Assembly (NCBI RefSeq): GCF_017355525.1
Contig: NZ_CP067395.1
Location: 496,001 to 560,000 of the forward strand
Origin: Lysobacter enzymogenes
Lineage (GTDB): Bacteria; Pseudomonadota; Gammaproteobacteria; Xanthomonadales; Xanthomonadaceae
Length of the DNA: 64,000 bases
Direction: 5' to 3'
Below are positions 39,424-42,400 of this stretch, one piece after another. Made by a program: the position numbers and the translations under genes. Position 1 is the stretch's first letter; every line of letters begins with the position of its first letter. The notes under the pieces were generated by a model. That model had not been told where the DNA came from. It searched no databases and saw only the letters and a list, made by a program, of their open reading frames with translations.

Positions 39424-42400
39424 ATGCTCACTCACGAACAGCTGATCGAACGCACCGAGTCCTACCTCAAGTCCCTGATCGCCGAAGCCGCCGACGGCAA
39501 CCGCGATGTGGACGTCGCTGCGCCGTTCGGCGAGCTGGGCATCGACTCGTTCCGCGTGCTCAAGATCATCAAGGCGCTGGAAGCGGACTTCGGCACGCTG
39601 CCGAAGACCTTGCTGTTCGAGCACTTCAACATCGAATCGCTGGCGCGCTATTTCGCCGACAAGCATGCGCCCACCGTCGCGACCCGACTCGCCGGCGCGG
39701 ATGCGGCGCCGGCGCCGGCGCCGGCCGCCGCCGCGCCGCGCGCGCCTGCGCCTGTCGCCGTTGTCGCCGCCGCCGCGCCGCCGCGCGGGCCCGAGCCGGC
39801 GCGCCTGCTCGAAGCGCATCTGCCGCAGCATCCGCAGCTCGAAGCGCGAGTCGGCGAGTTGTTCGCCGCGCACAAGAACGAAGGCTGCGTCTCGCGCGGC
39901 ACCCGCAACATCGCGCCGAATCTGTTCGTCGGCAGCGCGCAGGCAGGCTATTTCAACTACGCGCGCAGCGGAAATACCGTACTGGTATATGCATATACCG
40001 GCCCGGAAGCGTATTTCGACGAAATCGCCGGAGAAATGAGCGCCTACTGCGCCGGACGCGGCTTCCACCTCAACCTGTTCATCGACCGGCCGCTGGATCG
40101 CGTCGCCGGCGCGGCATTCACCGCCACCCCGTTCGGCGCGCTGCAGCGCGTGCACGGGCTGCAGCAGTTCAGCCTGGAAGGCAGCGCGATGAAGCGGCTG
40201 CGCTACCAGCTGTCGAAGTTCGAAAAGAGCGGCGAGTGCCGCACCGTCGAGTACGCCTGCGGCAGCGACGCTGCGACCGACCGCGAGATCGCCGCGGTCA
40301 TCGACCGCTGGTGCGACGGCAAGACCATGGTCAATCCGCTGATCCACCTGGTCCGCGAGGAAATCCTCGCCGGCAAGCTGCATCCGCAGCACCGCCTGTT
40401 CCTGACCTACCTGGACGGCGTGTTGCAGAACGCGATCCTGATCTCGCGCATGTGCGACGCGCTCAACGGCTATCTGATGGACCTGGAGTTCTACCCGCGC
40501 GAGATGCCGCTGGGCGGGCTGGAATACGCCATCGTCAACATCATGCGCGCGCTGCGCGAGGAAGGCTGCGATCTGTTGAGCCTCGGCGGCACCTACGGCT
40601 GCCGCCTGGAGACTTCGGACAACGCCGACCCGGAGGTCGACCGCATCCTCGACGACCTGCATCGCCAGGGCATCTTCAACGACGAAGGCAATCTGCAGTT
40701 CAAGAACAAGTTCCGCCCGGAAAACCGCACGATCTTCCTGTGCCGACCGGCCGACGGCGGCGCCAACGACAACGTGCTCGATCTGATCATGATGATCGCC
40801 GATCCGGCGCGCGCGACCTCGGAGGAGGGCAATCACACTCATCTGGGCGACGGTACGGTGGCCGCGACGGCCGCTGCCGCCGCTGCGCCGGCTGCGGTCG
40901 CCGCGCCGGTCGCCGCCGCAGTCGTCGCCGACGACGCCGCGGCCGTGTGCATCGACGGCCTGCCGCGCTCCGCCGCGCTCGCGCGCAGCGGCTTCAATCC
41001 GCTCAACCTGATCGCCGGCGAAGTCGAGTTCGATCTCAAGACCGACTCCTGGGCGCAACTGGACACCGACTACGTGCAGCGGCAGATGAGCCAGTTGCGC
41101 GCGCAATGGCCGCAGACCGCCGATCCGATCGCGCAACTGGCCGATATCTTCGGTTTCGAGCACTGCCTGCTGACCGAATCCGGCCGCGCCGCCGAAGCGC
41201 TGCTGTGCAAGGCCTGGCCGCGCCGCGGCGTGGTCCTGCAGAACCTGCTGTTCCCCTCGGGCATCTTCCATCAGATCGACCAGGGCTTCGTCCCGCGCGA
41301 GATCCCGCATCCGCAGGCCTTGCAGCCGCAGTCCGACGAGCCGTACAAGGCCAACCTGGACCTGCCGGCCCTGCGCGCGCAGCTGGACGCGAACGCCGGC
41401 GATATCGCTTTCGTCTGCATCGAAGTCTGCGACAACGCCAGCGGCGGCCATCCGGTCTCGCTGGCGCATCTGCGCGAGGTCAAAGCCTTGCTGCGCGAGC
41501 GCGGCATCGCCCTGGTCGTCGATGCGACGCGCATGCTCGAGAACGCGCAGTACCTGATCGAACACGAAGCCGAACACGCCGGGCAGGACGTGTGGAGCGT
41601 GGCGCGCCAGATCCTGGACTGCGCCGACGCGGTCACCGCGGCCTTGGCCAAGGACTTCGGCATCGACACCGGCGGCGTGGTCGCGGTGCGCGACGCGGCT
41701 GTGTCCGCGCGCCTGCGCGAGCTGTGCGCGCAGGACGGCGGCGGCCTGGACGCGCTGGAAAAGCGTACGGTCGCGCTGGCGTTGTCGCAGCGCGCGCAGA
41801 CCCAGGCGCGGGTGCGCCGGCGCATGCAGGCCGCGCGCCAGGTCTGGAGCGCGCTGCGCGAGCAGGGCGTCCCCGTGGTCGCGCCGGCCGGCGCGCATTG
41901 CGTGCTGATCGAGGTCAAGCGCCTGCCGCAGTTCGCCGGCTTCGCCCATCCGGTCGCCTCGTTCCTGGCTTGGCTGTACCTGCAGACCGGCGTTCGCGCC
42001 GGCGCGCACAGCGTCGGCATGCAGAAGGGCACGGCGATCAACGATCTGGTCCGGCTGGCGATTCCGCACGGTTTGAGCCAGGCCCAGGTCGGCGAGCTGT
42101 GTTCGCGCCTGCGCAGCGCGTTCGCGCAACCCAGCAATATTCCCGAGATCGCGCCGCTCGACGAGCGCCCCGGCGATCTGCACGGCCGTTACGCGCTGCT
42201 GCGCTATCACCTTCCCTCGGCCGGTCTGGTCGCGGCGGAAACGCGCCCCGCCGCGGTCGCGACGTCGGCCGTGCCCGTACCGTCCGCCGCGAACGCCGCG
42301 CTCGAACCGATGCGCGCGGACTGCGGCGATTTGGCCATCGTCGGCATGGCCGGCCGCTACCCCAAGGCCGATTCGCTGGCCCAGTTCTGGGACAACCTGC

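Follow-up and report, generated by a model that had tools for sequence, protein, structure and literature searches.

PksA of Lysobacter enzymogenes, a polyketide synthase (PKS) protein encoded in the window analysed here (64,000 nucleotides, positions 496001-560000 of a single 5.95 Mb contig), carries a DUF2156-type domain (DUF) and a pyridoxal phosphate (PLP)-dependent domain (SH) behind its N-terminal acyl carrier protein (ACP) domain. Judging from sequence, the region is very probably a DUF-SH didomain of the leinamycin/guangnanmycin/weishanmycin kind, placed in a mid-to-late module of a trans-acyltransferase (trans-AT) PKS that is split between two proteins, with a ketosynthase (KS) and a dehydratase (DH) at the end of PksE and ACP-DUF-SH at the start of PksA (KS-DH//ACP-DUF-SH). 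A preliminary description had proposed a new type of PKS initiation; the didomain would instead be a known sulfur-installing unit, here in mid-chain. As far as checked, two points appear to be new: the evidence from comparison that the split KS-DH//ACP-DUF-SH module is conserved, and the pairing of DUF with DH.

Pfam recognised two ACPs in PksA, an LPG_synthase_C match (PF09924, residues 192-440, E 8e-15) and a Beta_elim_lyase match (PF01212, residues 570-831, E 4e-30), the latter two far above chance level and followed by KS-DH-ketoreductase (KR)-ACP-KS-KR, and the PKS thus has the ACP-DUF2156-PF01212 arrangement of the didomain. In residues 125-905, Pfam matched none of the usual PKS domains, such as condensation or adenylation domains. 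Two elements of the earlier reading are supported: a fold-type-I beta-eliminating PLP domain suited to C-S chemistry, and a DUF2156 domain folded like the aminoacyl-tRNA-dependent transferases. The residues then named (LEGSAMKRLR, YLMDLEFY...PLGGLEY, DATR at 700-703, Lys743 and Arg877) are exact by translation and alignment. With its end near residue 905 (base 42138), the SH domain runs a few bases beyond the limit first given.

In a sequence tree and a fold comparison, the SH of PksA is nearer to a proven thiocysteine lyase domain than to tyrosine phenol-lyase (TPL) or tryptophanase, with guangnanmycin SH as its nearest solved relative, and the PLP lysine, Asp and substrate-carboxylate residues are kept in a 57-row alignment. 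Sequence, residues and fold agree, and PksA SH is most likely a (thio)cysteine lyase. The tree left out L016, whose protein is identical to that of L017 (both are within the alignment); L067 and L072-L074 have no complete SH row, the stand-alone TPL set was used without L085, L086 and L088 (two fragments and the window itself), and the fold comparisons of DUF and SH were second looks with VIA-align. True C-C cleavage of the TPL/tryptophanase type would suit the assignment to the beta-eliminating lyase superfamily by Pfam and NCBIfam, but the scores fall far below the curated cut-offs (145 of 720.7 bits for TPL, 178 of 285 bits for tryptophanase PRK13238). In the alignment, moreover, the TPL-specific Arg381 corresponds to a gap, Tyr71 to Arg559 and Lys256 to Ala742 (PMC3870968 in part numbers Tyr71 and Arg381 differently). 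A true TPL or tryptophanase was rejected on scores and residues, and the probability of such cleavage appears next to negligible. The idea that PKSs offer no precedent for a TPL-type domain, and that such a domain differs from leinamycin SH, was rejected on literature, sequence and fold, because the leinamycin-type SH is itself the TPL-like one. In the portions available, PMC3870968 tabulated six Beta_elim_lyase PKS proteins in 2013 and remarked on the loss of Arg381, and PMC8479088 describes three SH domains as proven thiocysteine lyases and puts the number of DUF-SH clusters at 109, including three non-leinamycin families.

Structure comparison gives the PksA DUF a tandem GNAT fold, as in aminoacyl-tRNA-dependent transferases (aaPGS/Fem-like), and its core is invariant across 35 rows. 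The DUF might act as a working aminoacyl-tRNA-type transferase that uses cysteinyl-tRNA as its source of Cys or Cys persulfide, whose sulfur it would attach to the enoyl-ACP made by the neighbouring DH; we consider this rather improbable, although if it were true, the sulfur of this large PKS family would be drawn from the translation pool. More likely than the tRNA form is that the GNAT cleft now holds the pantetheine arm of the ACP, and that DUF may serve more generally for the conjugate addition of amino acids, including in DUF-DH proteins that have no SH. The net charge of the PksA DUF is -11 (negative in 31 of the 35 rows), which provides little information on tRNA binding. Conjugate addition is the DUF role proposed in the accessible text of PMC7618002, and that of PMC8479088 treats the role of the leinamycin-type DUF as an open question; among the matches listed, the term aminoacyl-tRNA is absent from PMC7618002, PMC8479088, PMC9570651 and PMC12282132, which name the leinamycin DUF. 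The transferase fold, and the fact that DUF is paired with a PKS dehydratase also where SH was not detected, may help to clarify what DUF does. A Betaproteobacteria metagenome-assembled genome (MAG) has a stand-alone DUF2156-type gene with genes for a PKS-type DH, SDR, AMP-ligase and MBOAT (L073:6691-13467; L072 is similar by its list of open reading frames (ORFs)). The L073 locus showed no SH domain and perhaps encodes a small amino-acid-adding acyl pathway.

The place of the didomain follows from the order of the PKS proteins, for which we infer C-D-E-A-B because of gene order and domain complementarity: PksC ends in KS-DH and PksD begins with KR-ACP, PksD ends in KS and PksE begins with DH-KR-ACP, PksE ends in KS-DH and PksA begins with ACP-DUF-SH, and PksA ends in KS-KR and PksB, which closes with a thioesterase (TE), begins with ACP. 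These ends were read with domain queries cut from the cluster's own PKS proteins. Ten KS would then precede DUF-SH and three follow it, the last of them, in PksB, without active-site histidines. This PksB KS (50660-51967) keeps its Cys and has lost the histidines of HGTGT and NIGH; it is probably non-elongating. The KS of the last PksE module keeps Cys and both His. Independent support comes from the terminal DH of PksE, whose best match lies at a protein end, with 3-29 residues left to the stop, in 28 of 29 DUF-SH genomes (the exception being L122), and the Asp motif is present in 28 of the 29 PksE-type DHs. At L068, a PKS ending in KS-DH is followed by an HCS gene and then by an ACP-DUF-SH gene. 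DUF-SH lies behind other PKS domains of the same protein at L065, L071 and L089: in the Lachnospiraceae MAG locus (L071:1412-20431) it is found within a 6,340-aa PKS frame, behind a KS, and at L089 (contig 32 of G066, of the same class as the window genome) the protein reads KS-ACP-ACP-ACP-DUF-SH, leinamycin-like, with the didomain as the last part recognised and HCS adjoining.

A loading role of the DUF-SH region is unlikely because of the domain order, the terminal PksE-type DH and the context of DUF-SH at L068, L071 and L089. In a true loading module, tRNA-dependent transfer and PLP chemistry would provide the N-terminal ACP with an amino-acid-derived starter, and PksA would begin the line. 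In favour of this, PksA is encoded first among the cluster's PKS genes, opens with an ACP rather than a KS, and has a DUF with the fold of aminoacyl-tRNA-dependent transferases. However, PksA supplies the ACP missing from PksE, PksC begins with a KS and adjoins an AMP-ligase and a discrete ACP, and both the position of the PksE-type DH and the three loci with DUF-SH behind other PKS domains argue against it; we regard such a start as extremely improbable. The ACP called a loading region before would neither be first in the line nor lack an upstream KS; it is most likely part of the KS-DH module at the PksE end, with ten KS upstream in the proposed protein order. The domain labelled KS1 is the first KS of the PksA polypeptide, but most likely not the first of the assembly line. 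True loading most likely involves the AMP-ligase and the discrete ACP before PksC, to judge from their position.

Several observations weigh against a split module with an active didomain. A KS-DH end is also present on PksC, and the protein order is therefore a matter of inference. The figure of 28 of 29 for the terminal DH was obtained with the PksE-type DH alone, without a control set of other DH domains, and the DH matches in L122 and L123 are no stronger than second matches of other genomes. The pattern H-x3-[GA]-x4-P is found in only 18 of the 29 PksE-type DHs, at least one of them doubtful. As the last PksE module contains no KR, a dehydratable beta-hydroxyl would have to arise there in some other way. 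Among the invariant DUF residues, 33 differ from 5vrv and 21 agree. Finally, PksA SH has Ala740 at the position of TPL Ser254, where 54 of the 57 rows have Ser. This Ala, near the PLP lysine, would suit an inactive or vestigial didomain that lets the chain pass unmodified, but the other checked PLP and carboxylate residues are kept and the DUF core is invariant, and we find this very unlikely.

DUF-SH was found in 6 of 60 near relatives and in 2 of 398 members of the phylum sample (own genome counted in both), and its relatives occur in Pseudomonadota, Bacteroidota and Acidobacteriota. The species collection contains 57 DUF-SH loci, 45 of which have a frame starting with ACP-DUF-SH, and homologous proteins number 416, with the N-terminal order ACP-DUF-SH-KS-DH-KR-ACP present in 101 of the best 120. 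HCS occurs in 35 of 36 DUF-SH genomes compared to 3 of the 299 members of a phylum sample unmatched by taxon (the own genome, G066, which also has DUF-SH, and G338). One possible explanation is a leinamycin-like variant, in which a beta-branch bearing a carboxyl group is first made on the PksA ACP by the HCS cassette and serves DUF as the acceptor for thiocysteine. HCS adjoins the DUF-SH module at L068 and L089, and leinamycin-type ACPs likewise lack the Trp flag, according to the part of PMC7618002 available. Nevertheless, we gave this co-occurrence less weight as a sign of branching at the DUF-SH ACP, because the Trp-flagged ACPs of PksC (five) and PksD (two) can account for the cassette; the PksA ACP has no such flag, this DUF-SH family has a DH before the ACP, and the L071 genome has DUF-SH with no HCS found at 1e-60. 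The variant is thus unlikely, though less so than the other alternatives considered here.

In the split module as we picture it, the PksE KS would extend the chain and the PksE DH would yield an alpha,beta-unsaturated acyl group on the PksA ACP. DUF would then add a cysteine thiol or persulfide to the beta carbon, as in the published proposal for leinamycin-type DUF, and SH, with Lys743-bound PLP and with Arg877 on the cysteine carboxylate, is predicted to cut the C-S bond, giving pyruvate, ammonia and a beta-thiol or beta-hydropersulfide. From SH, the sulfur-bearing chain would move on to the following KS of PksA, with final release by the PksB thioesterase; loading would have taken place elsewhere, most likely via the AMP-ligase and the discrete ACP before PksC.

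PksA is preceded by household genes (dnaK, dnaJ, carAB, greA, recJ and a SIS/glutamine amidotransferase gene) and followed by PksB with its TE, an MMPL-type transporter, a GMC oxidoreductase and the AMP-ligase (Table 1). Beyond the window are PksC (5,654 aa), PksD (5,136 aa) and PksE (4,549 aa), and genes for HCS, ECH, AT and PPTase. A second ECH-like gene and a second AT-like gene (minus strand) there were assigned by eye, a KS was judged from position to be of the decarboxylating kind, and a small ACP-like gene without Pfam match was named donor ACP from position and sequence. With no AT domain (PF00698) found by Pfam in the scanned PKS parts (the first 683 residues of PksE lay outside the scan), the line is of the trans-AT type; no condensation domain was found in the cluster parts scanned with Pfam. 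The MMPL-type transporter and a LolA_like protein (window 53821-58920; in the ORF from 54771, the LolA part covers residues 688-875), followed by an ORF without Pfam match (57496-58920), perhaps have export functions. Two proteins flanking the PKS genes (window 60243-61004 and L009:1520-2338, minus strand) look alike by eye, the first without a Pfam match, and a subtilase-type autotransporter at 23-2200 is perhaps cut off by the window start.

Table 1 Features of the PKS cluster (window positions unless a locus is given)
Feature	Position	Strand	Remarks
PksA, 3,588 aa, ACP-DUF-SH-KS-DH-KR-ACP-KS-KR	39424..50190	+	Frame open from ATG 39424; Pfam and domain queries; no AT domain
N-terminal ACP of PksA	39436..39669	+	PP-binding Pfam match; LGIDS motif, Ser42; no Trp flag; carrier in proposed split KS-DH//ACP-DUF-SH module
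DUF domain (DUF2156/LPG_synthase_C, tandem GNAT fold)	39796..40833	+	Proposed (thio)cysteine addition to enoyl-ACP
SH domain, TPL/tryptophanase fold	40948..42138	+	PLP-dependent (thio)cysteine lyase by homology; DATR 700-703, Lys743, Arg877
KS after SH	42349..43683	+	DTACSSS, EAHGTGT and KTNIGH all kept; would accept thiolated chain
DH domain of PksA	44119..44958	+	Pfam, domain query, motifs
KR domain of PksA	45709..46293	+	Pfam, domain query
Second ACP of PksA	46519..46743	+	Pfam, domain query
C-terminal KS-KR of PksA	46939..49920	+	No ACP after; split module with PksB
PksB, 1,210 aa, ACP-KS0-ACP-TE	50192..53824	+	Pfam, motifs; presumed chain-releasing protein
AMP-forming acyl ligase	61339..63345	+	Pfam; directly 5' of PksC
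Discrete ACP, just beyond window	L006:125-391		Before PksC, beside AMP-ligase
Discrete AT	L008:16721-17860		

Compared with the aminoacyl-phosphatidylglycerol synthases MprF and A-PGS, the aminoacyl-tRNA-dependent peptide synthases Sba18/Sbb17, and FemX, the DUF is set apart by the invariant residues that differ in 5vrv, e.g. Phe356 in place of Arg. A cuniculene trans-AT PKS cluster of Aquimarina was reportedly described by Helfrich in 2019. All trans-AT KS linker matches at 1e-8 lie within one cluster in AU58 (15/15), A. atlantica (15/15) and Kordia algicida (14/14), which are better assembled than Aq78, where the linkers are spread over several contigs. According to the available parts of PMC9323603 and PMC9860996, the Aquimarina carriers of the cuniculene cluster are Aq78, Aq349, EL33, A. 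muelleri and RHTr2. A DUF-SH locus is present in three of the five (Aq78, A. muelleri and RHTr2; L028, L030 and L035), Aq349 and EL33 lying outside the look-up. Co-distribution, together with the linker matches that all fall in one cluster, makes it probable that cuniculene belongs to the DUF-SH cluster of Aquimarina, which differs from the window cluster in the sizes of the downstream PKSs. PMC7930024 does not mention cuniculene, and the available text of PMC11451712 reports trans-AT PKS clusters without known product in Lysobacter. In the portions of the literature consulted, which do not include the cuniculene report, no sulfur product is assigned to a mid-chain DUF-SH setting.

Nearly the same layout as that of PksA was already tabulated in 2013, which leaves little of the supposed new type of initiation: Table 2 of PMC3870968, as far as available, gives CP-DUF2156-PLP3-KS-KR-CP-KS(-KR) for F8TUA6 of Lysobacter sp. 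ATCC 53042, another strain likened here by printed layout alone, and A9ECY5 of Kordia algicida (locus L039), i.e. the PksA layout minus the DH, which is not shown in the table. The text available there assigns no product to them. With the leinamycin, guangnanmycin and weishanmycin PKSs (LnmJ, GnmT and WsmR), PksA shares a DUF beside a PLP-dependent (thio)cysteine lyase behind an ACP, the fold and active-site pattern of SH, and a trans-AT line with an HCS cassette. The last module of those proteins, KS-ACP-ACP-DUF-SH-TE, is the one by which the accessible text of PMC7618002 defines the leinamycin family, whereas PksA has a split KS-DH//ACP-DUF-SH module with a single ACP, three more KS after SH, and the TE on PksB. 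The same text describes non-leinamycin DUF-SH modules as having one ACP and no TE, and PksA fits this account in both respects; conjugate addition as the proposed role of DUF would suit PksA as well.
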